Below, in pieces: positions 16,002 to 30,850 of a DNA stretch of 32,599 nucleotides. The notes beneath the pieces were generated by a model. It ran no database searches. It was not told where the DNA came from and saw only the letters and a program-made list of their open reading frames with translations. Positions within the stretch are counted from its first letter, which is position 1; each line of letters begins with the position of its first letter. Both the position numbers and the translations under genes were made by a program. Source of the stretch: a virus; the IMG/VR virus record IMGVR_UViG_3300031772_000166, positions 1 to 32,599 of that record; one strand, 5' to 3'.

Positions 16002-17987
16002 TTAAATGGTTGACCCCTTTATGTCTTTATCCGGAAACTTTACTTCAAATACAGCGGGATCTAAAGATGGATAGATGACATCGTTTCTTGTAGAAGATGC
16101 AATGTCATATTCAACCGGAGAATAATCTTCTCCGTTAGTAGTTAATGGTGTCAGATTTTTAATCTTCAACGAAGCGACAGCAGAAACTCCTTCTACCTTG
16201 GCAATCTCTAATCTTAACTGACTTAAATTGATGGGTTGTGAAAAATCCCAATTATCTATATTGAAAAATTCTTTTACTGTTAATAGAGTATTTCCTAATA
16301 CTTCTTTTTTGTTGTATCCTTTAAATACACTAATAGAAAATTCCACGCCTATATTGATAATGTATCCATCAACTATATTGATACCGTCTGTTAATACTCT
16401 ATATTGTCGTAAATACGTTAATATATTGCTGACCAAAGCATCGTTGGTTGTTGTTAAATTTTTATTTTCGTCATAGGATAAAACATAAATATTTATAGAA
16501 AATGGATTGGATCTATCGAAAGAAATCTTTCTAAAATAGTTTTGGGTATTATCATTATTGACTACGGAATTATTATTTTGGTCAACTGTTCCTGTTAAAA
16601 TCTGATTGACATTGACATCCAAACTATTGTATGGGATAACTTGAGCTTTAGCAATACTTCCGTATTTAGGAGGCATAGCATATAAACGAACCAAATAATC
16701 TCCTTGTGTAACAGAACGATTCTGTGCAGCAAAAGAAGCCATGGCATTTTGCCTAATTTCTTCTATTGATTCCGAACCTTTTCCTCCTGTAGTTGGGTCA
16801 TCATTATTTATTTTAAGAGAAGTCTGAACGGTATTCAATAAATCAGCTTCTTCCGGAGACAAACCATCCACAGAATTTTCTATCGAAAGAGATTCTATGT
16901 TAATAACAGAATTAGATGGGGAATTCGATTCGATGCCTCCACCTATAGTGTAAGTTACCGTCATGGTTGTGTTAGATGGAGCCAATCCATAGGTGTCATT
17001 ATTTAAAAAATTGGAAGGATCCAACAGAATATTGGTATTGTTTAGATTTGACAATCCTACACCAATCTGTTGTGAACTCAAACTAATGAGTTCATCCGTA
17101 GAACTGTTTATTCCTGCTCCAAACTCCAAATATGTCTGATTGTCTGCGGTAACATTTACCGTAAATCTACGACCCGTTCTCAAATATTTTAAAATACTAG
17201 GTGTAGTCGATTTAAATTGAGAAAGATTTCCTTCAAACGATTCTTGATTTGGAACTCCATAGAATACTAATTCTTGAGCAAGAAAATCTACTTCATACCA
17301 CTTGTTATTATCAGAATCTCTTACATCAATAATTTCCATGACGTTGCTTTCATCCAATGCTAACTTCAAAAAGGATTCTGCTTGACCAAGAGAAAAGGTT
17401 TTTGTGATTAATTTTCCTGATTTGATGTTGGTAGTCTTTTTTAACAAAAAGAAAGTAGGAACACCGGTACTATCCCTAGAATAAACAGAGAGTTCCCTAG
17501 GAGAAAGAGGATTATCTATATTGAAATTGATAGGTACTGTAGTAAGAAATGTTGCTCCAACGTTATTGGATACTTGCATGTTATCTTTGATATTCAATGC
17601 AAATTTTTCATCAGGAACATATTCCCCATCTACGACGGTGGACGGTATTAATTGAAACACATCAATCTTTCCTGTTGCTCCCCTTACAGGTTTAACTTTG
17701 TATCCCATGAATTTAGCAAGAGGGACTATGTTTTTTCTTTCTTGTGTCTCAAATATAAGACCTTCCTTGAAATTGTAATCGTTGTAGTAAGAAAGAACAT
17801 CGCCCACATACGAGGCCATTTCTATAAACATCATACCAGGGCTGGCATCGGAAAAATCTTTGTAGGTATTTGGGAAATAATACTTGGCAAAATTAATTAA
17901 GGAATCCTTGAACTGAGAAAAATCTCGATTCAAATACCTTACATCCCTTTGATTGGGTTGAAATGACTTTTGTGTGGTTGATGCCAT
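16002..17987 (-). CDS. Baseplate wedge protein, gp6/J-like
   Basis: 661 residues. The N terminus is diagnostic of phage gp6-like wedge proteins: YLNRDFSQFKDSLINFAKYY, then DASPGMMFIEMASYVGDVLS and ERKNIVPLAKFMGYK. The middle has TGGKGSESIEEIRQNAMASF followed by AAQNRSVTQGDYLVRL, the hallmark of baseplate J-like proteins. In T4 and P2-type baseplates this protein dimerises to form the ring that holds the wedges together (family knowledge). Length is equal to T4 gp6 (660 aa). It starts immediately after the gp25-like gene (1-base gap), the order usual for this module. Confidence 0.88.
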   Translation of the reverse strand: MASTTQKSFQPNQRDVRYLNRDFSQFKDSLINFAKYYFPNTYKDFSDASPGMMFIEMASYVGDVLSYYNDYNFKEGLIFETQERKNIVPLAKFMGYKVKPVRGATGKIDVFQLIPSTVVDGEYVPDEKFALNIKDNMQVSNNVGATFLTTVPINFNIDNPLSPRELSVYSRDSTGVPTFFLLKKTTNIKSGKLITKTFSLGQAESFLKLALDESNVMEIIDVRDSDNNKWYEVDFLAQELVFYGVPNQESFEGNLSQFKSTTPSILKYLRTGRRFTVNVTADNQTYLEFGAGINSSTDELISLSSQQIGVGLSNLNNTNILLDPSNFLNNDTYGLAPSNTTMTVTYTIGGGIESNSPSNSVINIESLSIENSVDGLSPEEADLLNTVQTSLKINNDDPTTGGKGSESIEEIRQNAMASFAAQNRSVTQGDYLVRLYAMPPKYGSIAKAQVIPYNSLDVNVNQILTGTVDQNNNSVVNNDNTQNYFRKISFDRSNPFSINIYVLSYDENKNLTTTNDALVSNILTYLRQYRVLTDGINIVDGYIINIGVEFSISVFKGYNKKEVLGNTLLTVKEFFNIDNWDFSQPINLSQLRLEIAKVEGVSAVASLKIKNLTPLTTNGEDYSPVEYDIASSTRNDVIYPSLDPAVFEVKFPDKDIKGSTI

Positions 17988-20664: not shown

Positions 20665-21060
20665 TTATTCTTTCTTAAAACTTTTTACAACTATTGAAGA
20701 TTGTTTTGAAGATTCTTTTATATCACCGGCAGTTTTTTCTATATCTTTTAAGAGTTGATTTTTTTCTTCATCCGTTAAGAAAGCAGAACCATTTCCACCC
20801 TCTGATTCTGATTTAGATGAAACAAGTCTTTGGATTACTGTAGCCAAACGAACAAGGTGTTCATCGTTAGAGATTCCAGAATCTATATACTGTTTAATCA
20901 AAGGAACCACCGCCATAGCATCATTTACGGTTTTTATTAATGGTTTTAAATCACTAATGAGAAGTTCTATCTGATCTTTTCTTTGATTTTGATTACAAAC
21001 AATATCCTTACACAACTCTTCAAAAGTTTTGCCGTCGTATATTTGAAACTTCATATCCAT
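20665..21060 (-). CDS. Hypothetical protein, 131 aa, upstream of spike
   Basis: Unrecognised mostly helical acidic protein. It has a leading MKFQIYDGKTFEELCKDIV segment, a helical core (LKPLIKTVNDAMAVVPLIKQ), and a Ser/Gly-rich linker before a C-terminal helix. Two ATGs compete: 21060, or 21054 (MKF...). The TTAGG at 21067-21063 gives better spacing to 21054. It is the first structural-operon gene after the homing endonuclease insertion. The TATTTATT motif lies only 5 bases before the first ATG. Position suggests an assembly factor for the spike, but this is inference. Confidence 0.65.
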   Translation of the reverse strand: MDMKFQIYDGKTFEELCKDIVCNQNQRKDQIELLISDLKPLIKTVNDAMAVVPLIKQYIDSGISNDEHLVRLATVIQRLVSSKSESEGGNGSAFLTDEEKNQLLKDIEKTAGDIKESSKQSSIVVKSFKKE

Positions 21061-21090
21061 ACCTAATAAATAGATAGAACCACAATAAGT

Positions 21091-21120
21091 TCAAGACTTA
21101 ATATAATTATTTACATTACC
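21091..21120 (-). repeat. Orphan second copy of the 3' end of the sigma-factor gene
   Basis: Read on the minus strand this segment encodes G-NVNNYIKS-stop. The functional copy at the end of the sigma-like gene (21752-21781) encodes V-NVNNYIKS-stop. They match at 25 of 30 bases. The three differences within the shared NVNNYIKS-stop codons are all third-position synonymous (TAC/TAT, AAA/AAG, TCG/TCT). The endonuclease gene lies between the two copies. Confidence 0.8.
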
Positions 21121-21755
21121 CTATACAATTTGTCATTTATTTCGTCGTATCTTATGAATTCACTTGGATGTATAGACTCTATTATATTATTTTGTTTTTC
21201 TATATCCTTTTGTTTTCTATGTTTATTATGATGATACGGTTCGTCATATTCAAAAACAACATTTTTATTTTTGTCATATCCATCGACTGGATAGCCCGAT
21301 AAAACAACTTCTCCGCCATTCATGGCATGTTGAAAATCGTATCCATTTTGTTTTCCATATTCATCGATGAATTTACACGCTTTCGGATTGTATGCTACTA
21401 CTTTACCTTGTTCTTGAATCCTTCTTATAGCAGCTATTCTTAAATTTTCCCTATGTTTTTTTGTGAATTCTTTTCCATAAAAAGGATTATTTTTACCTAA
21501 TTTACTTTTTGATAGTTTATTTTTTGTAATACAGGAAAATTGTTTTCCTATCTTTTTATTAGACATTTTTAGTCGTGTCTCTTGTGTCATGGTTTTTCCA
21601 TACCAATAAGATCTATCACCTTTTTGTGAACAACTTTTACAATAAGAACGGAGATTGTGTCTTCGTAAACAAATTGATCGTGTTTTGTATATTAATTCCT
21701 TGGAACATGACGGACATTTTCTACACCATTTATTATTACAATTCTGATACGTCAC
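21111..21755 (-). CDS. Free-standing homing endonuclease with zinc finger, NUMOD3-like motifs and Vsr/EDxHD-type nuclease domain
   Basis: 214 residues. The N terminus holds a CxxC...CxxC zinc finger (C14, C17, C39, C42). Two NUMOD3-like DNA-binding motifs follow at about 47-70 (WYGKTMTQETRLKMSNKKIG) and 86-110 (GKNNPFYGKEFTKKHRENL). The C-terminal part (145-212) contains GYPVDGYDKNKNVVFEYDEP, His175-His176 and KDIEKQNNI. This is the arrangement of Vsr-like/EDxHD nucleases of phage homing genes. No GIY-YIG or HNH motif is seen. The start is GTG at 21755, overlapping the sigma-gene stop by 4 bases (GTGA). It is an intruder with no expected role in virion building. The flanking duplicated sigma codons mark its insertion. 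Active-site assignment is by eye. Confidence 0.8.
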   Translation of the reverse strand: MTYQNCNNKWCRKCPSCSKELIYKTRSICLRRHNLRSYCKSCSQKGDRSYWYGKTMTQETRLKMSNKKIGKQFSCITKNKLSKSKLGKNNPFYGKEFTKKHRENLRIAAIRRIQEQGKVVAYNPKACKFIDEYGKQNGYDFQHAMNGGEVVLSGYPVDGYDKNKNVVFEYDEPYHHNKHRKQKDIEKQNNIIESIHPSEFIRYDEINDKLYRVM

Positions 21756-21781
21756 GATTTAATGTAATTATTTACATTTAC
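21752..21781 (-). repeat. Functional copy of the duplicated sigma 3' end
   Basis: The last 30 bases of the sigma-like gene (V-NVNNYIKS-stop). They pair with the orphan copy at 21091-21120 as an imperfect direct repeat that brackets the endonuclease gene. Confidence 0.8.
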
Positions 21782-22774
21782 AATTCCATCGTTGATATAA
21801 GAACGAGATACCGTGTTCTGATATTGTTTCATCTTGTTTATCACTTTTGTAATTTGTTGCGTCTTACACTGAGATATTTCTCGGATGTAAAGATACAATG
21901 CTTTCTTATTATATGCTTCTATTCTATCGCTGTTTCTGAACAATTCAATTACGGCGTTTGCTATTTCTAAGTCTCTGGGTTTTGTGAATATTTTATTGAC
22001 GTTATTTTCCCAAAAACTCACCATCAAACTCATAAATTCCTCTGTCTCTGTTTTTTTATAATATTTGTCTTCGCTTTGTAATTGAATGGTGTTTTCGTCT
22101 TTTTCGTCGCTGATGTCAACGTGTTGATTAAATCTCTTATAATTTCCATTATTCAAGGCAATCAGATAATGTTTGGCCACTACAGAAAAATAAGAATAGG
22201 CTTTACTACCTTTTGTAGAATCGAATTTATGCAACACCGATACTAAAAATCCAACAACATCCTTTTGAATATTTAAAGGGCTGGTATCAAAATAAGTAAA
22301 TTTAAATGTATTGAATACATTCTCCACCAATTTTTCGAACGGATATTTTATTCTTTCGTTGTATATCTTATTCCTTATATCCATGTTCTGTTCCAAATTA
22401 TAATCTACAATTGCTAACTCTGTATCACCAGTAAAATACATTTTATTCACCGATGGAGCCTTGACTTCCTTCTCTACAACTTTTGCTTCCTTTTCGACGT
22501 TCTCTAATATTTTTTCTACTTCGACCTTTGGTAATTCTATAGATTTTGTTACGGCAGGAATAGGTGGTGGAGTTATATCTACTACAGGTATAATTTCTTT
22601 TTTTCTTAGAATTTTCTTTGGATTAACCTTACGAGATAGTTTATCTTCCAATTTAGCCTTATTAAGTTCTACAACCCTTTTTGGTTTGCCTTGATAATAC
22701 CGGCGTTGAATAATTTCTGAGGCATTTGATGTTTTCTTCTTTTTATTGGATTTTACTTTGGTGATTTTTTTCAT
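21752..22774 (-). CDS. Late-transcription sigma factor, gp55-like
   Basis: 340 residues. About 140-220 resembles sigma region 2 of phage late sigma factors: KLVENVFNTFKFTYFDTSPL, then FDSTKGSKAYSYFSVVAKHY. A possible region-4-like or helix-turn-helix stretch is ISQCKTQQITKVINKMKQ near 300-320. The first 110 residues are a Lys/Glu/Pro-rich extension (T4 gp55 is only 185 aa), probably flexible. Such factors bind host RNA polymerase core and recognise TATAAATA-type late promoters. The ATG at 22774 is 10 bases after the upstream gene. The C-terminal codons overlap or are duplicated around the endonuclease insertion. Assignment rests on region 2 and context. Confidence 0.72.
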   Translation of the reverse strand: MKKITKVKSNKKKKTSNASEIIQRRYYQGKPKRVVELNKAKLEDKLSRKVNPKKILRKKEIIPVVDITPPPIPAVTKSIELPKVEVEKILENVEKEAKVVEKEVKAPSVNKMYFTGDTELAIVDYNLEQNMDIRNKIYNERIKYPFEKLVENVFNTFKFTYFDTSPLNIQKDVVGFLVSVLHKFDSTKGSKAYSYFSVVAKHYLIALNNGNYKRFNQHVDISDEKDENTIQLQSEDKYYKKTETEEFMSLMVSFWENNVNKIFTKPRDLEIANAVIELFRNSDRIEAYNKKALYLYIREISQCKTQQITKVINKMKQYQNTVSRSYINDGIVNVNNYIKS

Positions 22775-24369: not shown

Positions 24370-25869
24370 TTATGTAAACGGTATCCAAGAACTTGTTTTA
24401 TCTGTTCTGATTGGAATAGACGATAATGGAATGCCTTGTACAACTGTTGATATCGTCCAAAAATTACCTACTGCCGGCAATGATGATTTGAATGCATAAA
24501 TGACATCGTTTACACTGTTACCTGATGTAGATGCGCTGAAACTAGCCGTGCAGTATTTAGATCCGGACCAAAAATTACATGAAGCCGACACAAATCCAGC
24601 TACCAATGATTGTGTAGTTACTAAGAATGGTAATACATAATTTCTTCCATGATTACCACTTTTATTTCCATAAAAATTGTATGTTGTTCCTGAAGTTCCC
24701 CATGAGGCAGTTGGAGCAAACATACATCCTTGTATTACCGGATTATTTGCAATCACAATCATTTTCTGTGATGAACTATTGACATTAAACGCATGTTCAG
24801 TCGTATCTGCGTTTTGAGTGGGTAGCGAATCCTCTCCAAGATATGCTCCGGTGTCTATGGCACCAAAATCGTCGCCGTCTTTAAAATGTAGTCTCTCGGT
24901 AAAGAGAGTTTCGTTTGCTTGATCTGCTGAAGAATACATTCTGGAACATACCCATAAGGTGTATTGACCTCTTGCTAGTCCGGTCTTTTTAAATTCCAAT
25001 AGTTGAGTAAATGATCCGTATGAACACGGATATACCGTATATCGTCCACGAATATAAGTATAACAATCTGAACTACCCAATGTATCCATGAGAGATGCAG
25101 TCCTATAAATTCCTGGTTTGGATGATTCGGTTATAGGATAGAGTCTGGCTTCATGAATCCAATATCCATTTTGTCCAAATGTGGTATCTCCTGAGGTTAT
25201 TTCATCGCTCATACCGTGTGTTCTTACTTTAAACAAAGCATCGGTATTATCTTTTAATATAATGATAGGAATTCCTTGTTGACACGCATCCCCAAAAGAC
25301 CAAACAGAACTTGTTGATGTACTTGATGTAAATGGGCCGTAAGCTTGTTCAAAACTTGTCTCAAGAGAATCCAAATCAATATTATAGTAAGATGCGGTTA
25401 ATGCAAAGGAAGATGTTGCTGCATATAATGATGTCGAAGCAGTCGGAGAAAATAATGCATAGGATGTAGAAAATACATTATCTGCATTGGCTGCTAAAGG
25501 AGCAAAGGAAGAAGTTATAGCATAGGAAGATGAAATAGATAGAGTTGAAAAACTACTGGTTCTACTCAACGATGCAGTCAAAGCATAAGATGCAGTTCCA
25601 TTAGATGTTGTTCCATCATAATACAAATTTAATAAAACCGATGCGGTTTTTGAGTAACTTGCTGTAAATATAAATGAAGCCGTATCAGTCAATAATGATT
25701 GACTTGAAAAGCTCGATGACAAAAATGACCCACTATCTAACGACCAAGAATTAAGACTCGATACTGCGGATTTAAATAAAGTCAAAGACCCACTATCAAT
25801 CACCACTAAGAAATCATTTCCTGTTGATGATGTTATCGACTGTGTTAATTGACTAATCTGTGTTGACAT
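24370..25869 (-). CDS. Tail fiber paralog 1 (S/T/A repeats plus conserved C-terminal domain)
   Basis: 499 residues, third of three tandem paralogs in the transcription direction. The N terminus (ISQLTQSITSSTGNDFLVVI, DSGS, LTLFKSAVSSLNSW) matches the other two and the 407-residue fiber, so it is probably the baseplate adaptor. Residues about 60-165 are Ser/Ala/Thr repeats (SNGTASYALTASLSRTSS). From about 178 onwards lies a globular region beginning with YGPFTSS and QQGIPIIILKDNTD. A C-terminal block (LVTTQSLVAGFVSASCNFWS, PLSSIPIRTDKTSSW) follows. It lies 2 bases after paralog 2 and should be a trimeric receptor-binding fiber, by analogy only. Confidence 0.72.
   Translation of the reverse strand: MSTQISQLTQSITSSTGNDFLVVIDSGSLTLFKSAVSSLNSWSLDSGSFLSSSFSSQSLLTDTASFIFTASYSKTASVLLNLYYDGTTSNGTASYALTASLSRTSSFSTLSISSSYAITSSFAPLAANADNVFSTSYALFSPTASTSLYAATSSFALTASYYNIDLDSLETSFEQAYGPFTSSTSTSSVWSFGDACQQGIPIIILKDNTDALFKVRTHGMSDEITSGDTTFGQNGYWIHEARLYPITESSKPGIYRTASLMDTLGSSDCYTYIRGRYTVYPCSYGSFTQLLEFKKTGLARGQYTLWVCSRMYSSADQANETLFTERLHFKDGDDFGAIDTGAYLGEDSLPTQNADTTEHAFNVNSSSQKMIVIANNPVIQGCMFAPTASWGTSGTTYNFYGNKSGNHGRNYVLPFLVTTQSLVAGFVSASCNFWSGSKYCTASFSASTSGNSVNDVIYAFKSSLPAVGNFWTISTVVQGIPLSSIPIRTDKTSSWIPFT
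24584..24630 (-). repeat. Near-identical 47-base tract, copy in fiber paralog 1
   Basis: Matches 26095-26141 at 46 of 47 bases. It encodes the LVTTQSLVAGFVSA segment in the C-terminal domain. Flanking sequences are much less alike. Confidence 0.85.
25582..25603 (-). repeat. NGTASYA-module DNA repeat, copy in fiber paralog 1
   Basis: Differs from the two copies in the 407-residue fiber gene at one base, linking the repeat zones of separate genes. Confidence 0.7.
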
Positions 25870-25871
25870 AA

Positions 25872-27332
25872 TTAAAATTTAGACGACGATTTTTCGGTCC
25901 TTATAGGTACACAGGACAATGCCGTTCCTTGAACAACCACCGATGTTGTCCAGTGTGTGGCTGTATTAGGAATATTGCCTAAATATGATACTGCTACATC
26001 CCCAACATTTAATCCAGAAGTAGATGCGCTAAAACTAGCTGAGTAAATATTTGCTAGATTGGAAGCAATAGAACCACTTCTGTAAGTGAACGACGCCGAC
26101 ACAAATCCAGCGACCAATGATTGTGTAGTTACTAAGAATGGGAAGGCATATATTCTACCCCAGTTTGCCGAAAGCCCAGCAGTTTCCTTTCCAAGAGAAG
26201 ATGTTGGAGCTAACATAGTTCCTTGATATATTTTTCCTGAAGAATATATGAGAGCTTTGTGTGATGAACTCATTGGTCTTAACCATGCGGTTTTTTGTCC
26301 GGTACTAAACGATTCTGTTGCTAAGTCATCTAAAATACCTCGATTAAAAACAGCCGTGCCGCTGGATATATGAACAGCCTGTAAAGGAAGATTGTTTACA
26401 GTATTTATCCCCGAATTATCATAAACTTTACTTGCTAACCAACAGATATAAGATCCTTGATTTAATGTCTTTCTAAACATGAATAAATAATCTCTTCCGG
26501 AAACTCTATTTCCAGCAATTTCATCATTTAAAAACGACAACGTGTAAGCCCAATCATCGGCATCATTCGGGCGATTGGATGCAGTTGGATTAACATAATA
26601 ACCAGGCAGAGCCGAAGATGTGATAGGCAACACCCTAGCCTCTATAGTAAACATTTCTCCATCCGTTGCAAACCTACTTGATATCATTTTAGAAGAAACC
26701 TGAAATAATACATCAGAATTATTTTCTGTAACAATAAATGGAATACCTTGATTTAATGGATCGCTCCATCCCCATTTAGATCCGGACCACGCACTGGATG
26801 TGATAGGGCCATACCACCTTGGTATATTTAATGAAGTATCTAAATTTACGTATGATGCGGTTATTGTTAAACTTGATGTTTGTGCTGTTAAAGTCGAATT
26901 AACATTTTGTGAAACTGATGCAAATGAAGATGTAGCAACCAAACTTGCTGTCTGAGCACGTTCGGTATAAGAAGATGTTGACGAACGTAATGATTGACTG
27001 GACTGTAGAGAAAAAGAACTCGTCAATGATATAGGAGCAAATAATGCATACGACGCTGTACCATTTGGTAAATCACTATATTTTAAAAATAATCCTACAG
27101 AACTTCTATGTGCATAACTTGCTGAAATTCCAAAAGAAGATGATATAGAAAATAAAGAACTAGATGCCCAACTTGATGACGCAGCCGAACCACTGGTTGA
27201 AAAATAATTGGCCAGAGAACTAATAGGCATCCTAAATGTTACCAATGTAGATCCACTGTCTGTAAAGACAATAAAATCATTACCTGAAACACTTGTTAGG
27301 TTATTTAATTCACTTATTTTTATATTTGCCAT
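25872..27332 (-). CDS. Tail fiber paralog 2 (S/T/A repeats plus conserved C-terminal domain)
   Basis: 486 residues with the same layout as its two neighbours. The N terminus is IKISELNNLTSVSGNDFIVF. A repeat zone has PNGTASYALFAPISLTSSFS. The WYGPITSSAWSGSKWGWSDP block leads into a C-terminal domain with FLVTTQSLVAGFVSASFTYR and the motif SASFSASTSG. Its LVTTQSLVAGFVSA codons are almost base-identical to those of paralog 1, although the rest differs widely. It is 3 bases from paralog 3 and 2 from paralog 1. This packing indicates a cassette of duplicated fiber genes. Confidence 0.72.
   Translation of the reverse strand: MANIKISELNNLTSVSGNDFIVFTDSGSTLVTFRMPISSLANYFSTSGSAASSSWASSSLFSISSSFGISASYAHRSSVGLFLKYSDLPNGTASYALFAPISLTSSFSLQSSQSLRSSTSSYTERAQTASLVATSSFASVSQNVNSTLTAQTSSLTITASYVNLDTSLNIPRWYGPITSSAWSGSKWGWSDPLNQGIPFIVTENNSDVLFQVSSKMISSRFATDGEMFTIEARVLPITSSALPGYYVNPTASNRPNDADDWAYTLSFLNDEIAGNRVSGRDYLFMFRKTLNQGSYICWLASKVYDNSGINTVNNLPLQAVHISSGTAVFNRGILDDLATESFSTGQKTAWLRPMSSSHKALIYSSGKIYQGTMLAPTSSLGKETAGLSANWGRIYAFPFLVTTQSLVAGFVSASFTYRSGSIASNLANIYSASFSASTSGLNVGDVAVSYLGNIPNTATHWTTSVVVQGTALSCVPIRTEKSSSKF
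26095..26141 (-). repeat. Near-identical 47-base tract, copy in fiber paralog 2
   Basis: Partner of 24584-24630, with a single difference (g for t). The third paralog is diverged at the same position (FLVDDNSISNNM). Confidence 0.85.
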
Positions 27333-27335
27333 AAA

Positions 27336-28862
27336 TTATATCGCTACCCACGAAGAACTTACATCTGTCCTTATAGGTATAGATGACAATGGAATTCCTA
27401 TTGTTGATATATTTAAATTTGCTTGCCACAACTTAGAAGTTCCTGCTATATTTCCTAAGAATCCAACCACCGTATTTCCGGAACTTAATCCCGATGTTGA
27501 CGCACTAAACGATGCAGTAAATCCTACAGAACCACTATAATAGTAAAATGAAGTCCTACACATGTTATTTGATATAGAATTATCATCAACTAAGAATGGC
27601 ATTGCGTAAACTCTACCAAATTTTCCTCCAAATAATTTTCCTATATAATCATAGTGTGGAGTAGGAGAAGAGCGATGTGACACAGAAGCCGTGGCAGCAA
27701 ACAATATTCCTTGTTTTATTTCTCTAGTACCATACACCGTTGTTCGTATGGCGCCACTATAAGGAAACATCCAACATTCCATTTGATTGTTGTTATCTAC
27801 TGCTTGTGCTTTGTCGAACCATATTCCAACAGCAGCTATCTGAATATTGTTTGCCACGGCAACCGGAGTATTTGGGCTTGTGTAAAGAGCATCAGTCAAT
27901 ATCGTGCCGTAAGTTCTATTTGTTATATTAGTATTTTTGAAAAATTTTGATTCAAACCAAAGAATATAAGATCCTCGTTTTACACCACTTTTTGAAAATA
28001 AAAATGTAGGATTCATTACAGTTTTGTATCCTCCGTTACCATAATAAGTTGTGCCTTCAATAATATCATCCGCTGTACCCCATTCATCTGTATAATTTGG
28101 TTCTTGATAAACTCCTGGATTTGTTGATGATGTTATTTCTTTCCATCTTAATTGAAGAGAATGTGGTCCACCAGGAGAAGTGGTATCAGCATCATCATTG
28201 TTTATTATATTTGCTGATGCCTGAAATATTAAATTCGTATCATCATACAAAACCATTATAGGTATTCCTCTAAATACTGGGTCCTGCCATCCATACATAG
28301 ACCCCGAATAACTACTTGCCGTAAAAGGTCCATACCACTTCGGAAAATTTTGTTGTAATGACACATTGACATAAGATGCCGTAAAAGCAACGGATGCCGA
28401 TATAGTTGTAGAAGCTGTCAATGCTAATAATGTGCTTGCAGCAAAAGAGGAGGAGGCTACGTAACTAGCACTTATTGTTCTTATAGCAAACGATGATGTT
28501 ATGCTTCGAGATGAAGAAACTGCAAATAATGATAAAGAACTTGAAGTCGATGATGAAGCGTTTACTGCCCATGATGCCGTTCCATTAAATGATCCATCAT
28601 ATTTTAAAAATTCTCCTGTGGAAGAAGTCAACGAATAACTCGCTGATATAAGATTTGATGCCGTAGGAGAAGTTTTCACATGTTGTGAAAAACTGGAAGA
28701 TAATACCGATGCACTTACAGAAAAATACACGGAATTCAACGTATTTACAGATATTTTAAAGGTGGTAAGAGAGGCCGCAGACCCGCTCTGAACAATGACT
28801 AGCAAATCGTCGCCGGTTATTGTTGATAACGTAGTTAATTGACTTATTCTTATTTGAGCCAT
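27336..28862 (-). CDS. Tail fiber paralog 3 (S/T/A repeats plus conserved C-terminal domain)
   Basis: 508 residues, the first of the three paralogs to be transcribed. The N terminus is IRISQLTTLSTITGDDLLVI. A repeat zone includes FNGTASWAVNASSSTSSSLS. The block WYGPFTASSYSGSMYGWQDP, then GIPIMVLYDDTNLIFQ, opens the globular part, and the end reads TIGIPLSSIPIRTDVSSSWV. Its mid-domain (AVGIWFDKAQAVDNNNQMEC) is unique, so it has diverged most. It follows the LamG-like protein after 8 bases. The role as a receptor-binding fiber is inferred from architecture. Confidence 0.72.
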   Translation of the reverse strand: MAQIRISQLTTLSTITGDDLLVIVQSGSAASLTTFKISVNTLNSVYFSVSASVLSSSFSQHVKTSPTASNLISASYSLTSSTGEFLKYDGSFNGTASWAVNASSSTSSSLSLFAVSSSRSITSSFAIRTISASYVASSSFAASTLLALTASTTISASVAFTASYVNVSLQQNFPKWYGPFTASSYSGSMYGWQDPVFRGIPIMVLYDDTNLIFQASANIINNDDADTTSPGGPHSLQLRWKEITSSTNPGVYQEPNYTDEWGTADDIIEGTTYYGNGGYKTVMNPTFLFSKSGVKRGSYILWFESKFFKNTNITNRTYGTILTDALYTSPNTPVAVANNIQIAAVGIWFDKAQAVDNNNQMECWMFPYSGAIRTTVYGTREIKQGILFAATASVSHRSSPTPHYDYIGKLFGGKFGRVYAMPFLVDDNSISNNMCRTSFYYYSGSVGFTASFSASTSGLSSGNTVVGFLGNIAGTSKLWQANLNISTIGIPLSSIPIRTDVSSSWVAI

Positions 28863-28870
28863 AATTTACT

Positions 28871-29620
28871 TTACCAAGGCAAACTAAAATGGGGTTTTAA
28901 ATAGTTGGTGTATAGATCTAAATATACTGAATCTGCCATAGCATTAGAATACATTAATACCACACCAACGTTACAACTATTGAGTGGTCCTCCATCGTCA
29001 CTTCCTAATATATCTGTGAGATACGTTCCTCCGTTTGAACCTCCTCCTGCGCTGGCAGAATTTTCCCAGAATGTAACGTTGCTTCCTGAACGCATCCAAA
29101 CGTTAGCTTTACCGGTACCTATTGACGCCGATAATAAATTAGAAGTTATTACACTTCCGCCATTAGGAAAGAACGAATTTTTGTTTGTTCCGCTTGTACA
29201 AATTCTTACTTGATAATTTAATCCGTTCTCACCAATAAGAATAGTGTCATTAGACCCCGTAGTTACTATAATAAAAGTGAAATCTCCAGCAAATGTAATT
29301 GTCGCTGGATGATTCATTCTGGCAAAAGGAGAGGTAAATAATACCGCTGGTTTTGTTCCAAATTGGTTTGTTTTGAAAACTGGTTTAGCAGTATTAACCG
29401 GGGTTGAGGATTGTGTATTAAGTGATTTATCTGTCCAAGGCATTGAACTGGAAAGTTGATCCCCATCGGATCGAGTCGCAGAATACGAATCAGCATCGAA
29501 CCATCTTACAAGAGTGCCGAATTGGACATCTGATGGTAATGTTGTTTCTCCTGCTGCGGCCGCGGTTGATGGCCGAGTAAGTGTTAAAAAAGTCAAATCA
29601 AACAGTGTTTGTGTAAGCAT
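28871..29620 (-). CDS. LamG/concanavalin-like domain protein, 249 aa
   Basis: Almost entirely one jelly-roll lectin-like domain. It shows GTLVRWFDADSYSATRSDGD, TNQFGTKPAVLFTS, DFTFIIVTTGSNDTILIGEN and an ending DLYTNYLKPHFSLPW. The same pattern occurs twice in the protein at 4279-6630, for example KTNQLGGKPAVKF against KTNQFGTKPAVLF. The protein lacks the adaptor N terminus of the neighbouring fibers. It sits between the 407-residue fiber and paralog 3 with gaps of 6 and 8 bases. It could be a fiber tip or adhesin added in trans. Sugar binding is inference from the fold. Confidence 0.72.
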   Translation of the reverse strand: MLTQTLFDLTFLTLTRPSTAAAAGETTLPSDVQFGTLVRWFDADSYSATRSDGDQLSSSMPWTDKSLNTQSSTPVNTAKPVFKTNQFGTKPAVLFTSPFARMNHPATITFAGDFTFIIVTTGSNDTILIGENGLNYQVRICTSGTNKNSFFPNGGSVITSNLLSASIGTGKANVWMRSGSNVTFWENSASAGGGSNGGTYLTDILGSDDGGPLNSCNVGVVLMYSNAMADSVYLDLYTNYLKPHFSLPW

Positions 29621-29626
29621 AACATA

Positions 29627-30850
29627 TTAAAGTTGAGTTGAGAATCCTCCTACTATAGCATTGTCAGCACTTCCATAACATGTTAAAGAAATTACACCAA
29701 TTTTACTAGCACTAATAGCAATAGGTGCCGTTCCCAACCATATCCATGCGGCCGGATAACCAATATTACAATTACTTCCACTCGCAAATATCTTTATACT
29801 CGCCATTTTTACAGATCCTAAATTACTTCCGGTGAGATATACACTAGAACTGATACTTGCACTATGATACATTGAAGCATTAAAATCAATGCTCATTGTA
29901 GGTGTATAATTAAGAGTAGTTAATGTTCCTACAACAATTGATGAATACGATGATGACACCGAATAAGATGATGACACGGAGAGAGAAGATGTCAATGAGA
30001 ATGATGCTGTTACAGCTAACGAAGATGTCCTAGAATAAGAAGCCGTGGTAGATAACGAAGATGTCGCTGAGAATGATGCAGTTTCAGCCAATACAGCAAA
30101 TACAGTATAAGACGACGTTATGTTTATTAAAGAAAATGATGCCGACACGGCTACCAAGGCATAAGATGCCGTTCCATTAGGAGTAAATCCATCATAATTT
30201 AAAAAATCAGCAGCGGCTGCTAATGTAGCCACATCACACGTATCTGCATCGAAAGCATGCATCGCTTCTAAAGCATAAGATGCCGTAGCAAAAGAAGCAC
30301 TATTAGGAATCGGATTAAAATAAGAAGCAGTAGTCGCTATATCAGCTTGAGAGGCTTTAATAGCATAAGATGCCGTTCCATTAGCTGTTCCTGTATAAAT
30401 TAAAAATGAAGAACTGTAAGCATTTAAAGCGACTGAAGCTGTTCGTGAAAATGATGAGGTTCCATTCGATACGGATGGAGAAAATACTAAAAATGATGCA
30501 CTAACAGACAAATTTGGAGTATTTGAACCACTTAGGAAGGAGGCCGTTAATGCATACGATGATGTAGTCGCACTACCTGCGGTTAAAGCGTAACTTGCTG
30601 TTCTGGACGTTATTCCATGAGACGCACTGGGAATCAATCCTACGTTGCTGGGATTAATATACGACGCGGTTGCAGCAGTGGTAGCTGTAACGGCTGTAAA
30701 ACTTCCACTAGCAACGATATAAGAAAGTAGTTGACTAGCTTGTAATTTTTTTGATTCTCTTGCGCTAGAATCTACTATAAGAAATAAATCGACTGATGAT
30801 ATTTCTCCAGCAGTAAGTTCTACAAGTTGCGATACTCTTTGGTTCGACAT
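29627..30850 (-). CDS. Ser/Thr/Ala-repeat tail fiber with a different C-terminal domain
   Basis: 407 residues. The N-terminal adaptor motif (QRVSQLVELTAGEISSVDLF) resembles the three paralogs. Residues about 52-315 consist of TASYA, SSSF and SLSVSSSYS repeats, including three NGTASYA modules, and should form a fibrous trimeric shaft. The C terminus (TTLNYTPTMSIDFNASMYHS, WIWLGTAPIAISASKIGVIS) is a small beta domain unlike the paralogs, similar to head domains of other phage fibers. The ATG at 30850 is the first start after the 79-base spacer that follows phoH. No Cys-rich or enzymatic motif is present. Confidence 0.72.
   Translation of the reverse strand: MSNQRVSQLVELTAGEISSVDLFLIVDSSARESKKLQASQLLSYIVASGSFTAVTATTAATASYINPSNVGLIPSASHGITSRTASYALTAGSATTSSYALTASFLSGSNTPNLSVSASFLVFSPSVSNGTSSFSRTASVALNAYSSSFLIYTGTANGTASYAIKASQADIATTASYFNPIPNSASFATASYALEAMHAFDADTCDVATLAAAADFLNYDGFTPNGTASYALVAVSASFSLINITSSYTVFAVLAETASFSATSSLSTTASYSRTSSLAVTASFSLTSSLSVSSSYSVSSSYSSIVVGTLTTLNYTPTMSIDFNASMYHSASISSSVYLTGSNLGSVKMASIKIFASGSNCNIGYPAAWIWLGTAPIAISASKIGVISLTCYGSADNAIVGGFSTQL
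30159..30180 (-). repeat. NGTASYA-module DNA repeat, copy a
   Basis: 22 bases identical to 30363-30384 and with one mismatch to 25582-25603. They encode the NGTASYA peptide module found in four fiber genes. Confidence 0.75.
30363..30384 (-). repeat. NGTASYA-module DNA repeat, copy b
   Basis: Identical over 22 bases to 30159-30180, within the same 407-residue fiber gene. Confidence 0.75.

Follow-up and report, generated by a model that had tools for sequence, protein, structure and literature searches.

A homing endonuclease gene at the 3' end of a phage sigma-like gene probably arrived with a substitute sigma end and left the native end as an orphan

The window, the complete 32,599-nucleotide stretch of IMG/VR virus record IMGVR_UViG_3300031772_000166, carries a free-standing homing endonuclease gene directly behind a phage sigma-like gene; the endonuclease gene probably arrived there with a replacement for the sigma 3' end (we put the probability of this reading at about three in four). 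The last codons of the sigma gene are present twice, once attached to the gene and once as an orphan behind the endonuclease. The relevant features are:

20665 to 21060, minus strand: next gene (131 aa), which follows directly after sigma in uninserted relatives
21061 to 21090, minus strand: native 30-nt spacer from sigma stop to next gene, with the conserved CTATTTAT
21091 to 21117, minus strand: orphan native sigma 3' end, NVNNYIKS and stop, with three synonymous differences (sequence comparison, shuffles)
21118 to 21122, minus strand: probable extension of the orphan, AGGGT, one base lost, equivalent to the (K/R)V codons of the sister L001 (comparison with L001)
21111 to 21755, minus strand: homing endonuclease gene (214 aa), GTG start in the sigma stop (GTGA) and TAA stop inside the orphan (ORF, NUMOD3, same-site homologues in L012, L161, L155 and L442)
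21141 to 21398, minus strand: predicted nuclease domain, about residues 120 to 205, DUF559/Vsr-like (family alignment, DUF559 matches, AF2, weak Foldseek match)
21447 to 21548, minus strand: NUMOD3 DNA-binding motif, residues 70 to 103, with a second repeat that matches too (Pfam PF07460)
21630 to 21728, minus strand: N-terminal zinc ribbon (WCRKCPSC ... CKSC), cysteines conserved in the family alignment
21752 to 21778, minus strand: attached sigma 3' end, ...NVNNYIKS and stop (sequence comparison, shuffles)
21752 to 22774, minus strand: sigma-factor-like gene (340 aa), weakly similar to T4 gp55 and conserved in all relatives (ORF, profile match, conserved neighbours)

The attached end is AATGTAAATAATTACATTAAATCGTGA and the second copy AATGTAAATAATTATATTAAGTCTTGA; both encode NVNNYIKS and a stop, the attached one closing with TCGTGA. 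The preliminary description had stated that the last eight sigma codons and the stop recur with synonymous differences only, and this is what the comparison returns: 24 of 27 positions are identical and the sole differences, TAC/TAT, AAA/AAG and TCG/TCT (attached/orphan), are all three synonymous. At up to three mismatches, the two copies are the only matches in the 32.6 kb and none occurred in 100 dinucleotide shuffles; the repeat of the sigma end is not due to chance. With 18% of single changes being synonymous, three out of three has a p of about 0.006 under free drift of both copies. The likeness of the copies reaches position 21122, where AGGGT-AATG... corresponds to (R)VNVNNYIKS minus one base.

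The endonuclease gene begins at the GTG of TCGTGA, within the sigma stop, as had been proposed; that this start is right follows from the homologues of L012 and L442, which start with ATGA at the same alignment position. The sigma frame is closed by its own stop ahead of the endonuclease ORF, and an ATGA/GTGA overlap at the sigma stop is present in 6 of the 7 sites with this endonuclease or its remains versus 3 of 74 empty sites. At the other end, the endonuclease stop TAA (21113 to 21111) lies inside the second sigma copy, out of that copy's frame: the protein ends with LYR and continues into orphan bases, where relatives have LYDALTNLDL. The window endonuclease is thus without its own last codons, indicating that the right junction is not homologous. 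The endonuclease gene lies in neither an intron nor an intein; a group I intron was considered and rejected, as an Rfam search gave no match.

The endonuclease matches NUMOD3 with an E-value of 2.2e-15. In its predicted nuclease domain, D158, D161, E169, H175 and D184 are invariant in the alignment of 24 family members, six of which match DUF559; the AF2 model has a pLDDT of 91 and its Foldseek match to Vsr (1vsr) is weak (E 0.27). A Vsr/restriction-like nuclease core with tethered NUMOD-type DNA-binding parts may be shared with the EDxHD (I-Bth0305I-like) phage homing endonucleases (PMC3943268), the structural match being weak; unlike those, the window enzyme is not intron-encoded and its nuclease is C-terminal, behind the zinc ribbon. 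Residues 1 to 48 of the L161 and L155 endonucleases are a duplicated zinc-ribbon unit at the N-terminus, suggesting that an internal duplication enlarged the DNA-binding part.

The sigma-like gene may be related to T4 gp55, at the edge of detection: a profile comparison (hhalign) with the T4/cyanophage gp55 family alignment gave an E-value of 1.4e-4 and a probability of 53%, co-linear over region 2, and the single T4 gp55 sequence reached only E 0.12. Pfam and PHROGs searches with the window sigma protein were negative, and the predicted structure was of low confidence (pLDDT 47) and left unused. The gene is kept in the cultured Flavobacterium phage immuto and in Microcystis phage Mel-JY01, where the next gene starts at most 33 nt past the stop, with no insert. 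In L013, the last sigma codons are frame-shifted and the expected INTDSYMKV end is encoded in another frame; the cause is a sequencing error or a broken sigma tail.

IMG/VR was scanned with the sigma proteins of the window, L012, L001 and L442, yielding 96 distinct junctions between sigma and the next gene. Of these, 74 are uninserted and have the same gene order, with a median distance of 50 nt from sigma stop to ATG and 27 to 31 nt in most near relatives (these counts leave out rows L141, L156 and L161; L141 is uninserted). The orphan stop in the window is 30 nt from the next ATG, exactly as in the uninserted L002, L005 and L006, and the spacer resembles that of L001. As the geometry of orphan and spacer equals that of the empty sites, the orphan represents the native end, and the insert comprises all that lies between the two copies. 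The proposal that the endonuclease inserted at the sigma 3' end and orphaned the original end is therefore well supported by the order of sigma stop, short spacer and next gene at empty sites. Relatives that have both copies but no endonuclease would have spoken against it; a second sigma end was found in none of the 74 uninserted junctions. A clean pair of occupied and empty sites is L442 and L003: L442 has an endonuclease of the same family and its sigma protein is 97% identical to that of the uninserted L003, with a clean insert exactly between sigma TGA and spacer and about 83% DNA identity on both flanks. The endonuclease gene lies between conserved genes and is absent from related genomes, as expected of a free-standing homing gene. 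The L442 contig (JACTVG010000072.1, 3.4 kb) is clearly phage; GTDB has it in the bin of a Methanoregulaceae archaeon.

The nearest relative, L001, is distant; it shares TAT with the orphan and AAA with the attached copy, so that each copy seems to have changed, the orphan synonymously. L001 thereby polarises one of the synonymous changes to the orphan. Before VNVNNYIKS, L001 has a K codon, the orphan an R codon and the attached copy an I codon. This codon pattern is consistent, if thinly, with the orphan being the native end.

Clearer signs of a sigma tail that moves with the endonuclease come from three relatives. An unusual sigma end, Y-x-S-Y-R-D-x-G-x-[VI]-[ND]-V-N-N-Y..., is common to L161, L155 and L136, as is an endonuclease with a 48-residue N-terminal extension; L136 keeps only the start of this endonuclease. 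Their sigma cores (codons 105 to 318) differ in lineage: L161 groups with L156, L155 with L138 and L136 with L012/L013, and a single clade of the three by sigma core is rejected (AU p 8e-93). L161 resembles its sister L156 at 146 of 169 informative sites up to about codon 282, then at 14 of 53; the gain of this breakpoint is 33.7, with a shuffled maximum of 9.2. L136 has a breakpoint near codon 266 against L012 (gain 40.0, null 7.2) and L155 has a less marked one (gain 16.4, null 8.1). To the right, all three keep the next gene of their native lineage (0.86 to the sister for L161, 0.81 and 0.69 for the other two). Co-conversion of flanking target sequence is thus seen in L161 and L136 and more weakly in L155, and the breakpoints of L161 and L136 suggest that the exchange starts 60 to 75 codons upstream of the sigma stop.

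L161 also has an orphan: ACATAAAGGTTTGA, the native last 14 nt, stands behind the endonuclease and is continuous with the native spacer. It matches the native ends of the sisters L156 and L141, with 9 or 10 of 2000 shuffles scoring as well, whereas it does not match the end that is attached in L161 itself (506 of 2000 shuffles score as well); the peptides are FHSIKSKV for the attached end and HIKV for the orphan. Judged by these comparisons, the L161 orphan end is closer to close relatives than the attached end is, and the order in L161 reads as native core, foreign 3' fifth of sigma, endonuclease and native orphan end, which is the order that had been proposed for the window. L161 is the only significant orphan beyond the window; those of L156 (about 9 nt) and L001 (decayed) are suggestive, and none of significance was found in L442 and L012, which carry the endonuclease. 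The sequence NTDLSL behind the insert of L012 was considered as an orphan sigma end (NTE/NTD...) and rejected: LYDALTNxDL is the endonuclease C-terminus in L155, L161 and L442.

The suggestion that the endonuclease brings its own sigma 3' end is thus borne out at the same site and for the same family in L161, L155 and L136, but not by a breakpoint in the window: a search for a foreign tract in the window sigma gene, against L001/L012 and L001/L003, detected none (gain 2.5, null 6.7). The attached end is of the window/L001 type. The lack of a detectable breakpoint implies that the donor, if any, was probably a close relative, and that the case for a foreign origin of the attached end in the window draws on the three synonymous differences, one upstream codon and analogy. 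Recoding had also been proposed to shield the recipient from cutting, which is doubtful for these 27 nt: the un-recoded orphan persists together with the full native spacer and would be cut if that stretch were the whole target, which argues that the target extends beyond these 27 bases.

The event was probably one-sided homing, with illegitimate joining at the right end. The endonuclease would cut the sigma gene in a co-infecting relative without the endonuclease, and the break would be repaired from the donor: homologous recombination on the left would bring in the 3' part of the donor sigma gene, the sigma stop codon and the endonuclease gene that overlaps it. At the right-hand side, the incoming DNA may be joined illegitimately inside the recipient's sigma 3' end, or a deletion may place the junction there. 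The result would be a whole sigma protein with a donor-derived end, while the last codons of the recipient, with the native spacer, would become the orphan that follows the endonuclease. The right junction of the window would have fallen inside the last codons of the endonuclease, which then borrowed its stop codon from the orphan.

For the window considered alone, the main rival is a local duplication: error-prone repair at the insertion of the endonuclease would have duplicated about 30 bp, and the two ends of the same phage would have drifted, the attached one under selection. We regard this as improbable but not negligible. As expected from a duplication, the two window ends resemble each other more than either resembles L001, and the window has no detectable foreign tract; the earlier argument that synonymous-only change means divergence in separate phages, plausible as it is, does not compel on its own, because duplication with selection on the attached copy could yield the same. 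Against this stand the low probability of three synonymous changes if both copies drift freely and the L001 pattern, with AAA in the attached copy and TAT in the orphan, which suggests a change in each copy and a synonymous one in the orphan. L442 has no duplication, and L161 cannot have arisen in this way, since its two peptides differ and its attached end is foreign; one account for the window and L161 together is simpler.

Slightly less probable still is a serial turnover, in which an insert already present in the common ancestor of the window and L001 produced the orphan before its endonuclease was exchanged for another (GIY-YIG in L001, NUMOD3/DUF559 here). L001 does have another type of endonuclease at this position, what may be a decayed orphan in L001 aligns over 53 columns with the window orphan and spacer, and the junction is a hotspot with several endonuclease types and remnants. 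On its own, however, the L001 orphan lacks significance (985 of 2000 shuffles score as well), the window orphan is nearly undecayed, which suggests a recent event, and the present endonuclease overlaps the orphan and takes its stop codon from it. That the second copy is a functional element, such as a regulatory site, promoter or terminator of the next gene, and resembles the sigma end by accident, is very improbable: the conserved CTATTTAT does adjoin it in the spacer, near the start of the next gene, but this motif lies outside the copy, the copy is absent from the 74 uninserted relatives and there is no Rfam match. The motif, as CTATTTAT(A)GG at 21061 to 21075 and its equivalents, directly precedes the ATG of the next gene in nearly all relatives, often behind a hairpin and T-run, and may be a late promoter or a start signal; this is the sole place in the window where CTATTTAT stands within 80 nt of a gene start.

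The arrangement has a known counterpart in the mobile ORFs with foreign C-termini of fungal mitochondria, described for atp6 of Allomyces macrogynus, atp6, atp9, cox2 and nad3 of Glomus sp., atp9 of Rhizopus and cox2 of Mortierella (PMC3630166). There too, an intact hybrid host gene consists of native core and element-supplied C-terminal part, the endonuclease ORF follows directly, and the native C-terminal coding end is orphaned and matches close relatives, including one case with synonymous-only differences. The window and L161 have the anatomy of Allomyces atp6, with the host gene intact with an element-supplied end and the native end orphaned behind the endonuclease; for the window, the foreign origin of the attached end is presumed. 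The differences are the phage rather than mitochondrial setting, the shorter orphans (14 to 32 nt versus 50 to 280 nt), the NUMOD3/DUF559 type of enzyme in place of LAGLIDADG or GIY-YIG, and the 4-nt stop/start overlap with translational coupling.

In T4, free-standing endonucleases such as SegF, SegG and MobE home without introns: they also lie between conserved genes, are absent from relatives and co-convert their flanks, and GTG starts and promoter-less cassettes occur among them; the T4 examples have no duplicated target end and their cut sites are hundreds of bp away (PMC2988022). T4 crosses in work of 1999, as reviewed in PMC2988022, gave one-sided homing with an illegitimate junction where homology was missing from one flank. 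In those crosses, homologous recombination on one flank was likewise paired with a non-homologous junction on the other, in a laboratory construct with a group I intron, whereas the present event is deduced from natural phage sequences. The anatomy is thus known from fungal mitochondria and co-conversion by free-standing endonucleases is classic in T4; an orphan target end in a phage is apparently new, as a limited search of the open literature, with most subscription journals outside its range, returned no phage report of one.

If correct, these phages provide natural examples of one-sided homing, until now a phenomenon of laboratory crosses, and they show how an intron-less endonuclease can enter an essential gene and still leave it whole, through replacement of the end that it displaces. 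Orphan-end scars would distinguish recipients from donors, and a hotspot with empty, clean, scarred and ruined alleles within one phage group makes the homing cycle testable. The sigma 3' end of these phages should not be used as a vertical marker. A broader reading, for which we see about even odds, is that the endonuclease family moves packaged with a recoded 3' fifth (60 to 75 codons) of the essential sigma gene that it attacks, and that repeated invasions shuffle sigma C-termini among lineages and leave orphan scars: an independent phage counterpart of the mitochondrial tail-carrying mobile ORFs, in which a selfish gene partly drives the diversity of sigma C-termini.

More than 100 nt separate sigma from the next gene in 21 of the 96 junctions (the mis-framed L141 excluded). 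The endonuclease family of the window is present at the sigma junction of L012, L155, L161 and L442, with 5' remains in L148, L156 and L136; GIY-YIG-like enzymes are found in L001, L166, L167, L528, L328 and L341 and distant NUMOD3 enzymes in L332 and L337. L148:3188-4052 and L156:3263-3820 are wrecked endonuclease genes at the sigma stop, accompanied by inserted or leftover DNA of other kinds, and represent the decay phase of homing. No orphan ends were found at about 54 further loci where the endonuclease family has inserted; scores of L239 and L262 were above the null but were rejected on inspection, the former match being the start of the next gene (YPEKD) and the latter a short upstream match away from the gene end. 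The same family apparently has a second hotspot, directly downstream of a gp6-like baseplate gene (its homologue in the window is 16002 to 17987), with no orphan end found there; it is occupied in L097, L099, L100, L227, L239, L241 and L247, and the upstream gene ends with ...PSxDPSxxExxxPxxDIxG... Elsewhere in the window, positions 24370 to 30850 encode several large proteins rich in SSS/TASY repeats with a common N-terminal MxxxxISQLxxL, which are probably tandem paralogous fibre-like proteins.
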